The notes under the pieces: generated by a model
What the model was told of the DNA's origin: nothing
Database searches by the model: none
Seen by the model: only the letters and a program-made list of their open reading frames with translations
Assembly (NCBI GenBank): GCA_025765595.1
Contig: JAIVFH010000008.1
Span: 434,001-498,000 of the forward strand
Source: Obelidium mucronatum
Lineage: Eukaryota; Chytridiomycota; Chytridiomycetes; Chytridiales; Chytriomycetaceae
Length of the DNA stretch: 64,000 nucleotides
Direction of reading: 5' to 3'
Made by a program: the position numbers and the translations under genes
Shown: positions 2,969 to 44,815 of the stretch, one piece after another
Numbering within the stretch: position 1 is the stretch's first letter
Layout of the letters: every line of letters starts with the position of its first letter

Positions 2969-5412
2969 ATGCACTCTCCACGCTTCTTTCTTGGTCTCTT
3001 GGCCATTGCTTCCTCTATGATTCCTGCTACCCAGGCTGGACCAGTTCAGAAGGTGAAGCCATCGTTGCCAGGATTCTACCAGCCCGCTTCTTCTTCCGTT
3101 GCTGTACCTCCAACAAACAGCTTTGGACCAGTTACATTGAATGCCAGTGACGCCGTTGATGCTGCCACCAGCCAGCTAGTGTCCAGCCTTAAAGTAGACA
3201 GTGACAGCGTCCAAGTGTACAACTCGTAAGCTTTTTCCTTCTTCCTTTTTTGTTGACAGCATCACTTAAAATACCCAAACACCAGCCTTTACTCCCGAGA
3301 CTCCAAAGTCTACCACATTCACTACACTGAAAAATTTCACGGTCTTCCAATCGCCAACGCCGTCTCCAACGTCAACATTGACGCTTCTGGAAACATCCTT
3401 TCTATGCATCAATCCTTTGTGCCAGTAGAAATCAAAAACAAGGCTGTTCCTGTTGGGAAACGCGATGCCCCTGTGATTCCACTTGAGCAGGCCGTCTTGA
3501 ACTTTGCGGAAGCCAAAGGCCTCAAGACTACCGATAAACTGACTGTTTCAAGTAATGGTGCAAACAGTTTTGTCGTTGAAGGAGCCTCGTTTGCGCTTTC
3601 TCCTATTCGTGCTTCGGAAAAGTACTACCAGACGGCTACGGGTCTTGTTCATGTGTGGGATATCAGTGTTGAGCAAAGTGATGTTTGGTAAGCTTCAAAT
3701 TCTTTTTCATTAATATGGAAAGAAGTTCTAATTTTGACATTAAATCTGACAGGGAAAACGCGTTTGTTGATTCGGCAAGCGGACAAATTGTTGGAGTCGC
3801 CAATTGGACTTCTGATTTCGGTGAGAAAGAAGACGCCATCAAGAAACCATCGTCCCTTGCCGCTCGTGCAGGCGCCGCCGTTCTCGATGCTGTCTACAAC
3901 GTTCTCCCAATTGGTTCCCGTAACCCACAGACCAACAACGGTCTCGTGCAAGTCAAGAACCCTTGGGACACCAACGCAAGTCCAAATGGCTGGCACAGTG
4001 CTGCCAAGGACCTTTCCGGAAACAACGTGTACGCTCAATCGAATCCAAACAATGTGCAGTCCGTTCAACAGTTGATTGGTCTCCCAAGACCAACAAACGC
4101 AGCCCAAACCTTCAACTACCCCTTCGACGCCTCCAAGGGATCTACCGACGCCAACAACCGTAACGCGGCCACGACCAACATGTTTTACATTACCAACGCG
4201 GTGCATGACATTTTCTACAATTACGGATTCACCGAAGTCGCTGGAAACTTCCAAAACGATAACTATGGAAAGGGTGGGCAAGGGAACGATGCTGTAGTTG
4301 CAAACTCGCAAGATGGTGCTGGGAAAAACAATGCCAACTTTGCTACGCCACCTGATGGCCAATACGGAAAAATGCGCATGTACGTATTTGATCTTGCTAC
4401 TCCAGATCGTGATGGAGCTTTGGAGAACGACATTATTGTGAGTGCTTGTTTCATTGTATATTGTACTCGCTTCTAAACGCGTTATTATCTACAGATCCAC
4501 GAATTGGGACATGGATTATCCAACCGTTTGACTGGTGGTCCCGCCAACTCCAACTGTTTGCAAACGACTAATAGTGCCGGTCTCGGTGAAGGTTGGTCCG
4601 ACGTGGTTGGATACATTCTCGCTCTTCCAGCTACATTTACTCGCTCCAATGATTACGCGATGGGGGCTTGGGCTTTGAATCGCGCTGGCGGTGTCAGAAA
4701 GTACCCATACTCCACCAGCTTGACCACCAACAAGCGAATGTTTGCAGACTTGAAAACCGAAACTGAAGTGCACAACATTGGAGAAGTCTGGGCTGAAGCT
4801 CTCTACGAAGTCATGTGGAACATGATTGATACTGCTGGATTCACTGCTCCCGCTGATATTGGTAAAAGCGCCGATTCTGGCACTGGAAACACTGCACTTC
4901 TCAAGATTCTTCTTGCGGCCATGAAGATCCAGCCATGTAACCCTGACTTTATTCAAGCCAGAAATGCAATCATTACTGCAGAGAAGACGTTATATAACGG
5001 AAAGTTTGCTTGTGACATTTGGAAGGGTTTTGCAAAGAGAGGTGCTGGTTCTGCCGCTACCACGAGCTACACCAACAACTTTGACCTTCCAGCTGAATGC
5101 AAGGGTGTCCAACCAACTACTACAAAAACAACTACCACCACCACCACTACTACTGCGACTACTACTAAGGCTGGTACCACTGCGGGTCCTACGACTGTCG
5201 TTCCAACAACTGTTGGAACTACTATCAGAACAACCACAACCACTACTACCACCACGTCTGCAAAGCCAACTACGACCGCTTCTGGCTCTATTGCTGGAAA
5301 GCCATGTACCACTTTCGGCGCAAGTCAATGTTCTGGTGGAATCACATACCAGTGCGCTTACTACAATTCTTCTAGCTTGACCTGGGGAGAATGGTACAAG
5401 GGAGGCTGTTGA
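2969..5412 (+). CDS. Fungalysin A, secreted M36 zinc metallopeptidase
   Basis: Extracellular metalloprotease of the fungalysin family. Exons 2969-3225, 3286-3687, 3753-4437 and 4495-5412 join in frame to 753 aa, each bounded by GT..AG introns of 57-65 nt. The N-terminus has a secretion signal (MHSPRFFLGLLAIASSM), then the FTP/PepSY-type propeptide. The catalytic motif HELGH is at residues 450-454 and the downstream glutamate ligand lies in GEGWSD (E480). An intron falls immediately before IHELGH. After a Thr-rich linker the protein ends in a small four-cysteine module (C-FGASQC-GGITYQC ... WYKGGC) that may bind carbohydrate; I cannot assign it to a named CBM. The C-terminal module is nearly the same as in fungalysin D at 42327-44815, so those two are the closest pair. 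Convergent with the 2OG oxygenase gene 98 bp downstream. Confidence 0.93.
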
Positions 5413-10897: not shown

Positions 10898-11445
10898 CCA
10901 CTGTGTCAGCCCTTCAAACAAGGAGGATGCTCAGAGAGAGACAATAGAATTCTTACGGAGAGTGAACAGCAATTATGAACACGACGTTAGGAAAGGTTTG
11001 CGGTTGGAGGCAGGTATTCAGTGGAGAAAGTACAAACAAGAAACCTAGGAGATACTACAGTCTTCATGTTATTCTCAGAAATTCTAAGGTTTGCTAAATA
11101 CCGCAAACACCGCTTTGAACCAGTTTTGTGCTTGTCTGTTGTCCATTTTATACTGCTGATTTTATCAGTGATTTTATTTGCTCCAAAACTGACCACACCG
11201 ATTAACTGATTTCAATATCAGCATATTTTAAGGGGATTATTCTTATGAAACTTGCATTTTCTACAATTCAAGAGACACCAAAGTTGATTGAAATGTTATT
11301 TCAGGTGGAATAGTGAATCTATATTTAATTAGCAGACCATTAGCTCCCCTGCATGGCCCCTGCAACGGTACGAAAGCTGCTCTGCTGACCGTTTCAAGCC
11401 TTTCATAAAAATCACCCCCCAACAAACCCAAGAGGTCTCAAGTTC
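10898..11445. promoter_or_regulatory. Divergent intergenic region, FUSC-like / LicD-like genes
   Basis: This 548-bp stretch lies between divergent starts. It holds AT-rich sequence and no convincing coding frame, RNA gene or repeat. Promoters of both flanking genes are expected here, but I see no firm motif. Confidence 0.35.
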
Positions 11446-13921
11446 ATGCCTCCCCCGAAGCAAGCAACTCAGCTGTCTTTGATTCTCCTTGCTGGAGTTT
11501 CAATGTACCTGATGGTATTTGTGCAGCTGCCTTCTGTGACAGGGCCTTTGGCCTATCACAACTTATCTGATATCGATCAGCGTGCCGTCAATCCTTCCAC
11601 TTTCTCTGCCAGCAAAGCCTTAGACAGTCCCGTCAACTCCCCGAATGAATCCAGCACAACCACAGCAGCCCAGCGATTGCTGGTGATCAACCATCCAGTA
11701 AGGCCTGTGCCCCCTTCGTACGGTGGTTAGTATGCTCTCACGAATTTTCAAGTTTTTTGAAAACAAAATGTCGAAATCCGTTGAAGCACCCGCCTAATGA
11801 CTCACTGCCTACAACAACTGCCAACCTCCGCAATCCTGCTGAAGCTACATCGATGAGTAGGTAAGAAGTTGCAAACCTTGATACAGATGGGTTTACGGGC
11901 ACAGAGGGTTTAACACTCTTTTCTCTTTTCAGGAAGCAACAACTTCGGCATCACGACAAGACCGTCGAAATCACCCAATCGCCAATTGTTCTTACAGCTC
12001 TATCTATGTGAGCGACTCTTAACGAAACACAACGCCTATGGTAAGGGTCATTTATTACTTCAAACACCAACCTATCACTAACTCTCAACGAAGACAACCA
12101 TCACAAACCATCAAACCATCTCATGAACACAGGCCTCTGTGAGGTCAGCTGGCACGGCACGCAACGCTCGCTGTTCAAATCATGGATTTTATAACCATGT
12201 TACCGACAACACCATATTACCCCAATACAGCAAACGGTTGCGAGAGAAACGACATGTGATCCCAAAGTGTTGTTGACGCAGGGCTGGAAGCTATCAATAA
12301 GGCAAGAATGTTGTCAGCATTCTGCCGGCATCGCAGGAACGACGAAATCTTGGTTCGATAGCTGGAGGTACTCGCGCAGCCGCAAGACGTCAATTGAGGC
12401 ATTGATTGATGCTATCAGATATATGTTGTGTTGAAGGTTAGTTGCGGTATCCGTTGTCGAACACAGTGTCATCTTGGATTGTAGGTTTAACAAGGCATCC
12501 TGTCTTTTTACTCTTTTATTATTGACAGGCTTTGACTGTCGTTGCGTAGTTTTCCTTGCTGTTGCGTTTAACCATTGCAAGACTGCCATCAACTAAAGCT
12601 GCCAGATTCTTATGTAGCGATGGGGTCTGTTTCTGATATCTTGTTCAGAGAGAGACCCGAAAAATTCCTGGCACTCTCTTGTGGATTGTAGCAAGGCAGT
12701 CTATCATTTTATCTATTAATAAAGACTTCTTTGATTTCCTTTGTGTTGGTTTGTTTTTGCTGAATAGTATGATGGGGGTGCTTTTGTCGTTACACCGGGG
12801 TGCTTTTGTAGGTACACCGGGGTGCTTTTGTCAAAACACCAGGGTGCTTTAAGCTGGAAATCGAGAAGAGCATACTAACCACCGTACCTTCGGCATTAGA
12901 TCCAGATACCCCAGAACCCCCTCGATACATTCACTTTCAAGAACCGCTTCCAGCAGAGCCAGTTGTGATGTTTTCTCTGCCTCCGGATCGAAAAGAGGCA
13001 AGAATCATGCGTGAAAGCTTCCTAGAGGAGGATGTGATCGACCGATATTGGTCAATAACAAAGTACGACACTGGAAACTACACACGGATTCCAGCTTCAT
13101 ACTTTTCAATCTATCAGAGTGTTTTGCCCTCGTTTGACGTGGCGGCTTTGCAATATGCTGTCAGCCAAGACTACGAATACTTTAAAACTTGCACCACCAG
13201 TGCAAAAGTAGACGCTCGCTTCATTGAACCAATCACCTGCAAACAACATGAACCCAAAATATCTTTTGATATTCAAGTCGTCCATAAAAGCCTGGTGGGG
13301 ATTCTCAAAGCCTGGTCTGCGTTTGCATCGGCACGGCAACTATATTGGTGGATTTCACATGGGGAAATGATTGGTTGGTTTTGGAATTCTCATCTATTGC
13401 CATGGGATCAGGACTTGGACTTCCAACTGCCCCTGAAATCGCTGCTTGAATTGGTAAAACACAACGGCACCGTATTCGAGCATGAAGGTGGAAAATACTT
13501 GATTGATGTGAGCCCGAAAATTTATGATCGTGCAAAAGGGTTCGGGAATACCATCGATGGGCGGATGATTGATATGGCAACAGGTCATTTCGTTGATATT
13601 ACTGGGTTGACGCACTCTATTGAGGATGAACAAGTTGTTCGGTGCAAGTCTCCTCACTACTATCACATGGATCATTTGATGCCTTTGCACGAAACAACGC
13701 TGGAGGGTGTTGTTGTGTGGCGACCTCGCGCTGTATTGGCGATACTTTCGAAAGAGTACCACTCGTTTGCTTACAAGCGGAAAACATACGTTAAGGAAGG
13801 TGAAAAATGGCAGTATCACCCACGGCTATTGAAATGGGTAAAGATTGCACGGTCTGGGCGCAGCGTCAGTGTTACGTCAGTCAAAGCATTATTCGCATCC
13901 ATCCTTATTTTCTTTCTATAA
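11446..13921 (+). CDS. LicD/MNN4-like phosphotransferase gene interrupted by an inverted-repeat element
   Basis: Type II membrane protein of the LicD/fukutin/MNN4 group, which adds phospho-sugars or phosphocholine to glycans. The N-terminus (11446) has a signal-anchor segment near residues 10-30 and a Ser/Thr-rich stem. The right part holds the family core: WISHGEMIGWFWN followed by LPWDQDLDFQ. A final hydrophobic segment ends at 13921. The frame is cut after 91 codons by an element at 11719-12886. Joining 11446-11718 to 12893-13921 (element plus one CCTTCG copy removed) gives 434 codons with no stop, so the ancestral gene was intact and probably intronless. Splicing at GTTAGT (11726) and AG (12899) also gives an in-frame product, differing only at the junction. 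Whether the gene is still functional depends on that splicing. Confidence 0.8.
11861..11932 (+). other. Intron-like segment inside the inverted-repeat element
   Basis: A 72-nt stretch begins GTAAGA and ends with a pyrimidine-rich run and TTTTCAG, with TTTAACAC as a possible branch site. Size and signals match real introns in this window. Joining its flanks gives a short open frame from about 11809 to a TGA near 12010. That suggests the element carries a captured fragment of a host gene, as Pack-type elements do; the fragment is not recognised. Confidence 0.35.
12775..12850. repeat. 22-bp tandem repeat, about 3.5 copies
   Basis: Three full units at 12775-12796, 12797-12818 and 12819-12840 share GGGGTGCTTTTGT and an end in ACACC, with a variable middle. 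A partial fourth unit follows at 12841-12850. The array lies in the subterminal region of the element at 11719-12886, where transposase-binding repeats often lie. Confidence 0.8.
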
Positions 13922-14317: not shown

Positions 14318-17300
14318 ATGCACCCCCCTAGATTCTTCCTTGGCCTGATGGCAGTCGCCACATCTATGATCCAAACTGCTCAGGCTGGTCCTGTTCAGAA
14401 GGTCAAGGCAACTCTCCCTGGATTCTACCAACCCACAGCTACAAGAATTGAGGTACCACAAACTGAGGCTTCGTTCGTCTCCCTCTCCTTGACACAAGAT
14501 GAGGCTTTTGCAGCAGCGACTGACTTCCTTTCTACCGGCACTGGGGTTGAAAACACAAGCATTGAGATTTCTCAATCGTAAGTTATTGCACTTTGAATTG
14601 TGATCTTGAATTAAGGATGTATGCAGTCTCTTTTCACCTGAGGCCAACTTGTACCACATTCACTACACTGAAATGTTTCACGGTCTCCCAATCGCAAACT
14701 CTGTGTCTAACGTGAACATTGACACAACCGGAAGCGTCCTATCGATCCACCAGAGTTTCGTTCCAACCGAAATCAAACGGTCTGCTGTGCCAGTCCAAAA
14801 ACGTGATGCCCCCGTGATTCCACTTGAGCAAGCGATTCTCAACTTTGCCGAAGCAAAGGGTTTCAAGACTACCGACAAGTTAACTGTCACCAGTAAAGGA
14901 GCCAACAAATTTGTTGTTGAAGGGGCTTCTTTCGCCCTTTCCCCAATCCATGCTTCCGAAAAGTACTACCAAACTGCAACTGGTCTCATTCACGTTTGGG
15001 ACATAAGTGTCGAGCAAGATGATGTGTGGTGAGTGAAAAAATCTCATTGTTTCTATTTTTGTTTTACATTCAGCTATTAACTGTACATACAAAGGGAAAA
15101 TGCCTTCATCAACTCTGAAACAGGAGAAATTGTTGGAGTTGCGAACTGGACTTCTGATTTCAGTGCCAAGGAAGAATCCCCCAAAGCGTCTACTCTCGCC
15201 GCTCGTGCTGGAGCCATTCTTGACGCCGTCTACAGCGTAATTCCAATCGGGCAGCGAAACCCAAAATCCAACAATGGTCTCACGCAAGTCAAGAGCCCAT
15301 GGGATACTGTAGCGAGTCCAAGCGGTTGGCACTATGCAAGCAAAGATCTTTCCGGAAACAACGTGTATGCACAGTCCAACCCAAACAACGTTCTCGACAT
15401 CAACAAGTTGATTAATCTGCCAAGACCATCAAGCGCGAACTTGGAATTCAACTACCGTTTCGATGCAACAAAAGGATCCGAAGATGCCGGTAACCGCGAT
15501 GTTGCTACAACAAACATGTTCTACGTCACAAACGCGATCCACGATGTTTTCTACAACTACGGTTTCGACGAAGTTTCTGGAAACTTCCAAGACGACAACT
15601 TTGGACGAGGTGGACAAGAATATGATCCTGTGGTTGCAACCGCACAAGATGGGGCGGGGAAAAACAACGCCAACTTCGCTACACCGCCTGATGGTTATCC
15701 TGGAAAAATGAGAATGTATGTTTTCACTTCGGCTACACCTGACCGTGATGGAGCCTTGGAGAATGACATCATTGTGAGTGTTTCACTAATTATTGATTCA
15801 TGACTACTTATCACAAACTCCCACGAACTATTAGATTCATGAACTTGGTCATGGTTTGTCCAACCGTTTGACTGGTGGACCTACCAACGCCAACTGCTTG
15901 CAGACTGTTGTTAGCGGAGGTTTGGGAGAAGGATGGAGTGACGTCGTTGGTTTTATAATGTCGGTTCCTGCCACATTTACTCGCAATAGTGACTACGCGA
16001 TGGGTTACTGGGCAGTCAACAGACCCAATGGAGTTAGAAAGTTCCCATACTCCACAAGTTTAATCACCAACAAGCGCATGTTTTCGGATTTGAAAACTCT
16101 TGTGGAAGTTCACGCGGTCGGAGAAGTTTGGGCGGAGGCCTTGTACGAAGTCATGTGGAACTTGATTGATGCCGCCGGATTCACGGCTCCGGCTGATATT
16201 GGCAAGAGCGCCAACTCTGGAACAGGAAACACTGTGCTTCTTAAAGTCCTTATTGCTGCTATGAAGATCCAGCCATGCAACCCAGACTTTATTCAAGCTA
16301 GAAACGCGATCATTCGTGCCGAGAAGGCTCTTTACAATGGAAAGTTTTCCTGTGAGATTTGGAAAGGGTTTGCCAAGCGTGGAGTGGGGTTGAACGCGGA
16401 CAACACGTACAATGACAACTTTGACGTCCCAACTGAATGCCAAGGGCAATCCGCGCCATCCACCACTTCCACCACTCCCACCACTTCCACCACTTCTACT
16501 ACGTCCACTACTACAACTACAACAACCACGAAGGCAACTACGACTACAACGACAACCACAACCACAACTCCAACAACAACAACAACAACTACCACGACAA
16601 CTACTTTGCCAACCACAACTACAACAAACACCACCTCCACAACAATTACTACCTCTACAACTGTCCCTACTACAACCACTACGACTACAACCACTGTTCC
16701 CACTACAACTTCGTCAACCACTACTACTACGACCCCAACCACAACCACCTCTTCAACTACAACTACAACTGTGCCCACTACAACGTCGACTGAAACGACC
16801 GCAACCACCACAACCACACCAAGCACCACCACCTCCGAACAAGCCCCCACTACCACCACAGCCCCTCCAACAACAACGACAGCATCTCCAACTACAACCT
16901 CAACAACAACAGAACCAATCCAAACCTGTGCTGAACCATGGAAGCCAACCACAATCTACAAGGACGGAAGCATCGTAAGCGACAAGGGGGTCAACTTCAA
17001 GCGTCAAACAAGCGCGGGAACTCCAGGTGGAAACGGTGAAAATGAAATTGCGTGGGTTTCTTTGGGCCCTTGTGTTCCAGCTACCACCACTGCAGTTGCC
17101 GTTTCTTCTACGATTGAGGCAATCGCCACTACAGCCGATCAAGTTACTACTGCATCGCCAGTGGTACCAACAACTACTACTGAAGAAAAAACCGTCCCAA
17201 CAATCGCACCCACCACGACCACCACCTCTGCAAACTGCTACCCCGAATGGAGCGCAACTCTCAACTACCCAAAAGGAAGCTTGGTAACTTACAAGGGTAT

Positions 17301-42326: not shown

Positions 42327-44815
42327 ATGCACTCCCCAAGCTTCTTCCTCGGTCTCTTGGCCATTGCCTCAACCGTCCAGGCTGGACCTGTGCAAAAGAC
42401 CAAGCCTTCCTTGCCAGGGTTCTATCAACCAGTTGCTTCCACTGTGGACGTTCCACCAACCCAGTCTTTCATTTCCACCACTTTGAATGCAAATGAAGCT
42501 GTTACCGCTGCCACAAACTTCCTCGTCTCGAGTCTCAACGTTGACAGCAGCGACGTTAAAGTCTCCAACTCGTAAGTCCAACCAAAAAAAAAAAAGCCCC
42601 TCTCTATTCTTGATTTCCCCTAACAATAATAACATAGTGTTTACTCTGCCGATGCCAAGACGTACCACATCCACTACACCGAAACCTTCCACGGCCTCCC
42701 CATCGCCAACGCAAACTCCAACGTCAACATTGACGCTTCCGGAAACATTCTCTCCATCCACCAATCGTTTGTGCCCGCCGAAATCAAGAACAAGGCTGTC
42801 CCCGTTGGAAAGCGTGATGCTCCCGTGATTCCCGTTCAACAGGCCGTTCTCAACTTTGCGGAAGCAAAAGGTTTAAAGACTACGGATAAGTTGACGGTTT
42901 CGAATAAGGGTGACAATAGCTTTACTGTTTCGGGGGCTTCGTTTGCATTGTCTCCGATCCGGGCTTCTGAAAAGTATTATCAGACTGCTTCGGGGTTGGT
43001 TCACGTTTGGGATATTAGTGTCGAGCAGAAGGATGTCTGGTAAAAAGTTTTCTCTTTGGTTGTGCCTTTTTGGGTTACTAATACTTACAAACAAAAAAAC
43101 AGGCAAAACGTGTTTGTCAACACTGAAAACGGAGAAATCGTTGGAGTTTCCAACTGGACCGCCGACTTCCAGGAAGGAACCGCCTCATCAGAAGCCCCCA
43201 TCCAACGCCGCGATGCCACCTCCGACTCCTCAAAAGCACCCACCCTCGTCGCCCGTGCCGCCAACGCCATCTACAACGCCATCCCCATTGGAAAACGCAA
43301 CCCTTCCCAAGACCAACTGGTTCAAATCAGCAACCCATCGAACCCAAACGCAAGTCCCAACGGCTGGCACAATGCCCGAAACGACTTGTCCGGAAACAAC
43401 GTCTACGTCCAATCGAACCCATCTTCGATTTCAAATGTGAATCAGCTCAAGAACTTGCCCAGACCTTCGAACGCGAATTTGGTCTTCAACTACCAGTTTG
43501 ATGCTGCCAAAGGTACAACTGACCAGCAGAACCGCGATGCCGCGTCGACCAATTTGTTTTACGTCAATAATGCTGTTCACGATATCTTTTACAACTTTGG
43601 GTTTACGGAGGCTGCTGGAAACTTCCAGGATGATAACTATGGGAAGGGCGGTGCTGGGAACGACGCTGTCGTTGCCACTTCGCAGGATGGATCTGGAACC
43701 AACAATGCGGATATGACTACTCCTCCAGATGGTCAGAACGGAAAGATGAGAATGTTTTTGATGACCTTGTCGACTCCAGGACGTGATGGAAGTTTGGAGA
43801 ATGATATCATCGTGAGTTTTTTTTTTTTTTTTTTTTTTTTGTTTTCTGATTTTAAAGCTGTTTTAACAACATATCAATATCTAAAAAGATTCACGAATAC
43901 GGTCACGGTCTTTCCAACCGTTTGACCGGCGGCCCAGCCAACTCCAACTGCCTACAAACCACAATCAGTGGAGGAATGGGTGAAGGATGGAGTGACGTTG
44001 TCGGATTCCTTTTATCCATGCCAGCCACCTACACCCGTAACAGCGATTACACCATGGGAGCCTGGGCCTTCAACAGACCCAACGGAATCCGTCAATACCC
44101 ATACTCCACCAGCTTAACCCGAAACAGACACCTCCTCTCTGACTTGAAGACACTCACTGAAGTACACGCAGTAGGTGAAATCTGGGCCACCGCACTGTAC
44201 GAAGTCCTCTGGAACATGGTGGACACCGCCGGGTTCACGGCCCCCGCGGATTTCATCAACAGCAGCAACGCTGGCACCGGTAACACGGCACTCCTCAAGC
44301 TTCTCATTGCGGCCATGAAGATCCAGCCATGTAACCCAGACATGTTCCAAGCCAGAAACGCTATTATTACGGCGGATAAGCAGTTGTATGCTGGGAAGTT
44401 TACTTGCGATATTTGGAAGGGTTTCGCAAAGAGAGGGTTGGGTGTTTCGGCGACGAGTAGTTATGTTGATAACTTTGATGTTCCGGCGGAGTGTAAGGGG
44501 GTTCAGCCAACTACTGTGAGAACAACTACCACTACTACGACTACTACTACTGCTGCTGCCACTACTACTAAGGCCGCTACTACTACTACTAAGGCTGGTA
44601 CCACTGTGGTTCCAACGACTGTCGTTCCAACCACCACCACCACTACTACCACCACCACGTCTGCTAAGCCAACCACGACCGCTTCTGGCTCTCTTGCTGG
44701 AAAGCCATGTACCAGTTTCGGTGCTAGTCAATGTTCTGGTGGAATCACTTACCAGTGCGCTTACTACAACTCTTCTAGCTTGACTTGGGGAGAATGGTAC
44801 AAGGGTGGATGCTGA
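42327..44815 (+). CDS. Fungalysin D, secreted M36 zinc metallopeptidase
   Basis: Exons 42327-42571, 42638-43039, 43103-43811 and 43889-44815 join to 760 aa. The signal peptide is MHSPSFFLGLLAIASTV. The propeptide and catalytic domain follow, with HEYGH at residues 454-458 and the glutamate ligand in MGEGWSD. A potential basic cleavage or processing region (RRDATSD, GKRNPS) lies before the mature enzyme. The linker is Thr-rich and the last 45 residues (GKPC-SFGASQC ... WYKGGC) are almost identical to fungalysin A, while the catalytic halves differ more. All three intron positions match A and B. The gene is followed after 175 bp by an MFSD1-like transporter on the same strand. Confidence 0.93.

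Follow-up and report, generated by a model that had tools for sequence, protein, structure and literature searches.

A probable non-autonomous IS3EU-type transposon in one allele of a LicD-family gene of Obelidium mucronatum, with splice-like letters in its inverted repeats

The LicD-family gene in the window (the whole 64,000-nt stretch analysed, G000:C8:434001-498000, from the chytrid Obelidium mucronatum) is interrupted by an element that is, with high probability, an ordinary non-autonomous cut-and-paste transposon of the IS3EU type. It has its ends in common with a longer relative on contig C240 and would have been inserted into the LicD coding exon, on one haplotype, by a DDE transposase supplied from elsewhere, with duplication of 6 bp. 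The insertion would break the allele that bears it, and the intact second allele would cover for the loss. The letters GTTAGT and TACTAAC would then be there as terminal inverted repeat (TIR) sequence that resembles splice signals, and not for splicing. The coordinates of the features are collected in Table 1.

Table 1. Features of the interrupted gene and of the element, in window positions
Feature	Position	Strand	Basis or remark
LicD-family gene, 5′ part, 91 codons before the element	11446..11718	+	ends in first CCTTCG copy; frame intact in allele L066
Target site duplication, left copy, CCTTCG	11713..11718	.	single copy in empty allele
Non-autonomous element, most likely IS3EU-type, family A, 1168 bp	11719..12886	.	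ends match C240 relative
Left TIR, TACGGTGGTTAGTATGCTCT	11719..11738	+	20 bp, perfect
Donor-like GTTAGT in left TIR, judged incidental	11726..11731	+	
Three overlapping direct repeats, 22 nt apart, subterminal	12775..12850	+	
Right TIR	12867..12886	-	20 bp, perfect
Branch-like TACTAAC in right TIR, judged incidental	12873..12879	+	
Target site duplication, right copy, CCTTCG	12887..12892	.	window sequence
LicD-family gene, 3′ part (PF04991)	12893..13921	+	profile match and empty allele

An earlier note on this DNA had described a TIR transposon inside a coding exon, flanked by a CCTTCG duplication, whose precise removal restores a LicD frame of 433 aa. All of this is borne out by a natural empty allele. 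When the element and one CCTTCG are left out of the window sequence, an open frame of 452 aa results (433 aa when counted from the start codon, ATG, at 11446), and the 3′ part of the gene matches LicD in a Pfam search (PF04991, E 6.6e-18). When the LicD 3′ flank was searched against the assembly, a further place, 99% identical, came up on contig C214 (L066). The site there reads CCCCCTTCGGCATTAG, with one CCTTCG and an intact 452-aa frame, and the element search of the assembly gave no copy on C214. The flanks of the two alleles are 98.3% and 99.3% identical on the two sides of the site, and collinearity continues for 6 kb further downstream at 98%. An exact empty site, which the note had proposed looking for in related strains, is thus present in the same assembly. 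As several matches are paired or tripled with near-equal scores, both haplotypes seem to be partly represented in the assembly; given the exact empty site, the insertion lies on one haplotype and is probably recent. The element-bearing LicD frame stops just inside the left TIR, with Tyr-Gly-Gly and then TAG. Since the other allele carries the intact 433-aa frame, no splicing is needed for the insertion to be tolerated, and the intact allele would account for its tolerance.

In protein searches, the LicD-family protein of the window has relatives in other Chytridiales, and a LicD paralogue is deposited for O. mucronatum itself; no near-identical deposited protein was found for either Obelidium LicD allele within a search range of 188-598 aa. 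Homology between the window and C214 ends upstream near window position 11192, although the two are 98-99% identical downstream of about that point, a break which suggests that the alleles differ in structure here as well. The window also contains two stretches of about 1.87 kb, at 14644-16513 and 3303-5167, that are 73% identical to each other; a further copy, at 66%, lies at 42651-44442, and there are others elsewhere, which makes this a local gene family.

The structure of the element is that of a cut-and-paste transposon. Its TIRs are 100% complementary over 20 bp, as the note had it, or over 21 nt when the matching flanking base is included, and imperfect complementarity, with gaps, reaches out to about 37 nt. 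Its open frames, as listed, reach 92 aa at most, and the subterminal direct repeats are possible transposase binding sites. IS3EU elements are described as having TA..TA ends and 6-bp target site duplications, with TAYGG..CCRTA in the fungal TET+ families (PMC12730594, PMC10045372). The ends of the window element, TACGG..CCGTA, fit both forms, and the 6-bp duplications of its own family (family A) and of two related families (B and C) fit the superfamily. Membership in IS3EU is most likely on these sequence features. KDZ was the assignment considered first, but the end sequence and the 6-bp duplication spoke against it.

The relative on C240 (C240:884-11737, or L051:884 to L052:4838) is 10,854 bp long. 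Its two ends are matched by the first 665 bp (84%) and the last 117 bp (92%) of the window element, which makes the window copy either a deletion derivative or a closely related non-autonomous element. Nothing convincing came from Pfam for the transposase pieces of C240, and homology to family B (29-65% identity over the exons) was used instead to recognise a candidate IS3EU-type transposase. One C240 exon also matches an rva_4 region of the same genome (E 2e-5). Family B has PF24764 matches (E 7e-4 and 1e-3) that fall short of the curated cut-off, and no match to this profile was seen in C240 at 1e-3. Integrase-like segments with D, D and E could be read by eye in the relatives. C240 further encodes a Tet_JBP domain (PF12851, E 1.1e-8, exactly at the cut-off) and, on the opposite strand, an alpha-kinase (PF02816, E 1.5e-12). 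Seven other Tet_JBP places were seen in the genome, all under the cut-off.

The element search of the assembly returned 21 separate places, 20 of which were examined (two are halves of one copy; the place on C9 was left out). With the window copy, ten complete copies of family A were found, and the 6-bp duplication is perfect in nine of them and has one mismatch in the tenth, on C125. One recognisable end, with up to five mismatches allowed, is present at L042, L043, L044, L047, L053-L056 and L058, and none at L057. At five of these places (L053, L054, L055, L056 and L058), a diverged TIR has nearly identical flanking letters, which would fit an old end of a transposon that is carried within another repeat. 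Families B and C gave nine end pairs, every one with a perfect 6-bp duplication, and two more single B-like ends lack partners. Their TIRs are identical over 45 bp in seven pairs, with one mismatch in the eighth and divergence after about 28 bp in the ninth. Family B has its first 16 bases in common with family A, with one mismatch at the right end of the C81 copy. The family C end, TACGGTGGTCCGTATG, contains neither GTTAGT nor TACTAAC, and in five of the ten complete family-A copies the splice-like motif is altered to TTAAT at one end.

The motifs that had suggested splicing are all where they were reported: the left TIR carries G|GTTAGT, the right one TACTAAC, and an AG stands at 12898-12899. 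This AG is the first after TACTAAC, 21 nt past the branch A, and belongs to ordinary host coding sequence that is also present in the empty allele. Joining 11725 to 12900, that is, removing 11726-12899 (1174 nt), does keep the frame as claimed, and changes Ser-Ala-Leu-Asp to Ser-Tyr-Gly-Asp. On the other strand of the window copy, the first AG lies 13 nt after the branch and shifts the frame. Among 200,000 random 20-mers starting with TACGG, GTTAGTA occurs in 0.11%, and looser donor-plus-branch pairs in 0.6% or 2.3%. As the 16-bp core is common to families A and B, the copies of the motif are not independent, and an AG in frame is about a one-in-three event. The case for splicing rests on one TIR motif shared by descent and an in-frame AG.

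Three of the ten complete family-A copies lie in open frames of at least 290 aa: the window copy, one on C93 (L046:3001-3887, in a 327-aa frame) and one on C112, in an ion-channel gene (PF07885 twice). Random sites fall in such frames in 35% (window) and 18% (flanks of ten other loci) of cases, so that no exon bias is seen in these small numbers; the flank control was made on pieces of about 3 kb, a size that truncates frames. The 290-aa threshold was chosen after the three cases had been seen. At 200 aa, the copies number four of ten, against 56% and 37% of random sites; the added one, on C125, has its junction 7 residues into its frame, perhaps in a 5′ UTR. Read in the sense of its gene, the C93 copy has a GTTAAT donor, TACTAAC and a first AG at 33 nt, in frame, whereas the C112 copy has GTTAGT, TATTAAC and four first AGs that are all out of frame. 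The deposited C93 protein (P0020, a model) runs straight through the TIR and ends within the element in transposon-encoded residues. An exact empty allele of the C112 site, with a 396-aa frame, is present on C188, so that two of the three in-gene copies have an intact empty allele; for the C93 site, a search of the assembly with one flank found none.

Host introns offer a measure for the proposed one. An unbiased look for enriched motifs that might be host splice signals, made on 197 kb, was swamped by repeats and yielded no clear consensus, and GT..CTAAC..YAG showed no excess on the same 197 kb (400 observed, 442 expected). As this enrichment was unclear, we used a small set of introns inferred in chaperonin genes, where 14 of 16 gaps were resolved, with a median of 66 nt. 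Thirteen of the 14 are 47-123 nt long, and one, doubtful, is 197 nt. Their donors are loose, TACTAAC occurs in one of the 14, and another has a GTTAGC donor; the boundaries were picked by frame and donor score and are hence biased to the usual consensus, and two or more of them match the profile badly. With such loose donors and one TACTAAC, the element's signals could be readable by the host spliceosome, yet an intron of 1174 nt would be exceptionally long against those inferred in the host, some 6 times their maximum and 18 times their median.

The earlier note had proposed that the element splices itself out, with a donor in one TIR and a branch site in the other, and this part of it finds no support. 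Removal from the LicD pre-mRNA as one intron with the host AG as acceptor agrees with the donor and branch, with a first AG in frame at the cost of two residues, with the C93 copy (in frame at its first AG, no empty allele found with one flank) and with the single host occurrences of TACTAAC and GTTAGC; introns derived from transposable elements, with one splice site of their own and one borrowed, have also been described (PMC9860276). We nevertheless consider it quite improbable. The motifs are gone in family C and altered at one end in half of the complete family-A copies, the C112 copy would shift its frame, the C93 model reads through, and the intact second allele removes the need; together with the absence of an exon bias and the intron length, these observations disfavour splicing. 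If the element really spliced, the donor-branch palindrome in its TIR could render exonic insertions harmless in either orientation. That the core of the family A and B TIRs supplies donor and branch on its two strands, so that exonic insertions in either orientation leave the transcript as kilobase-long introns ending at a host AG and are hence tolerated, with the window and C93 copies as working examples, is a proposal to which we give very little credence. The splice-like letters are judged incidental.

Transposable elements in exons are often mis-spliced, and in maize Ds the donor is reportedly used with internal or downstream acceptors, with low-level aberrant transcripts as a result. The TIR donor of the window element might occasionally be used in the same manner, as intron-like stretches are present on the element's sense strand (e.g., GTAAG..TTTTCAG at 11861-11932). 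This is unlikely; such splicing would be a side effect rather than something the element is built for, and the deposited C93 model makes no use of the TIR donor. An old intron grown transposon-like would share the splice-like ends, and this has next to no chance of being right, contradicted as it is by the sister allele, whose empty site is exact and holds CCTTCG once, by the 21 similar places in the genome and by the 6-bp duplications throughout the family. The element, on the preferred reading a recent insertion of a non-autonomous IS3EU-type transposon, is a clean one-haplotype insertion whose empty counterpart is found in the same assembly, which is useful for dating the activity of this transposon in chytrids.

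Several known systems invite comparison. Maize Ds and dSpm are said to be DNA transposons that sit in exons with a donor near their end and an acceptor in the host, with splicing shown experimentally; they belong to a different superfamily from the window element. Introners carry or borrow splice sites, and some have TIRs (Gozashti 2022, PMC9860276). The window element resembles them as a TIR element with a target duplication in a coding exon, where one splice signal could be the element's and one the host's. In the families described there, however, the copies are introns, with family median lengths of 30-654 nt, whereas the window element has 1168 bp. Introner copies would be expected to sit in genes as introns and to keep their splice sites from copy to copy; here, seven of the ten complete copies lie outside open frames of at least 290 aa and three within, and five of ten have the motif changed at one end. 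Nearest to the design proposed in the earlier note are the symmetrical stwintrons and sister introns of Hypoxylaceae, which are spliced and have terminal inverted repeats of 45-55 nt, with the donor G, branch A and acceptor G lying, frequently unpaired, in the predicted TIR hairpin (PMC8469720). As described there, these differ in their seamless insertion without flanking duplications, in their length (examples of 93 and 207 nt) and in their support from SRA data and RT-PCR. No paper with that exact branch-site-in-TIR design was found by title or abstract among the open-access papers searched.

The closest likeness is to the TET+ subgroup of IS3EU, in which a TET/JBP gene stands between the transposase and an opposed alpha-kinase (Kojima 2025, PMC12730594). 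The window family shares with it the 6-bp duplications and the TAYGG..CCRTA ends, and the gene order is found in the C240 relative only. The window copy differs in lacking those genes and in its TIRs, perfect over 20-21 bp only; TIRs longer than 30 bp are stated for the Pucciniales TET+ families only. The host, a chytrid, is also different: Pucciniomycetes, Agaricomycetes and Pezizomycetes are the only groups named in the abstract of the 2025 survey, and the words "chytrid" and "Obelidium" do not occur in its main text (PMC12730594). With the C240 relative, the range of TET-carrying IS3EU elements would reach into Chytridiomycota.
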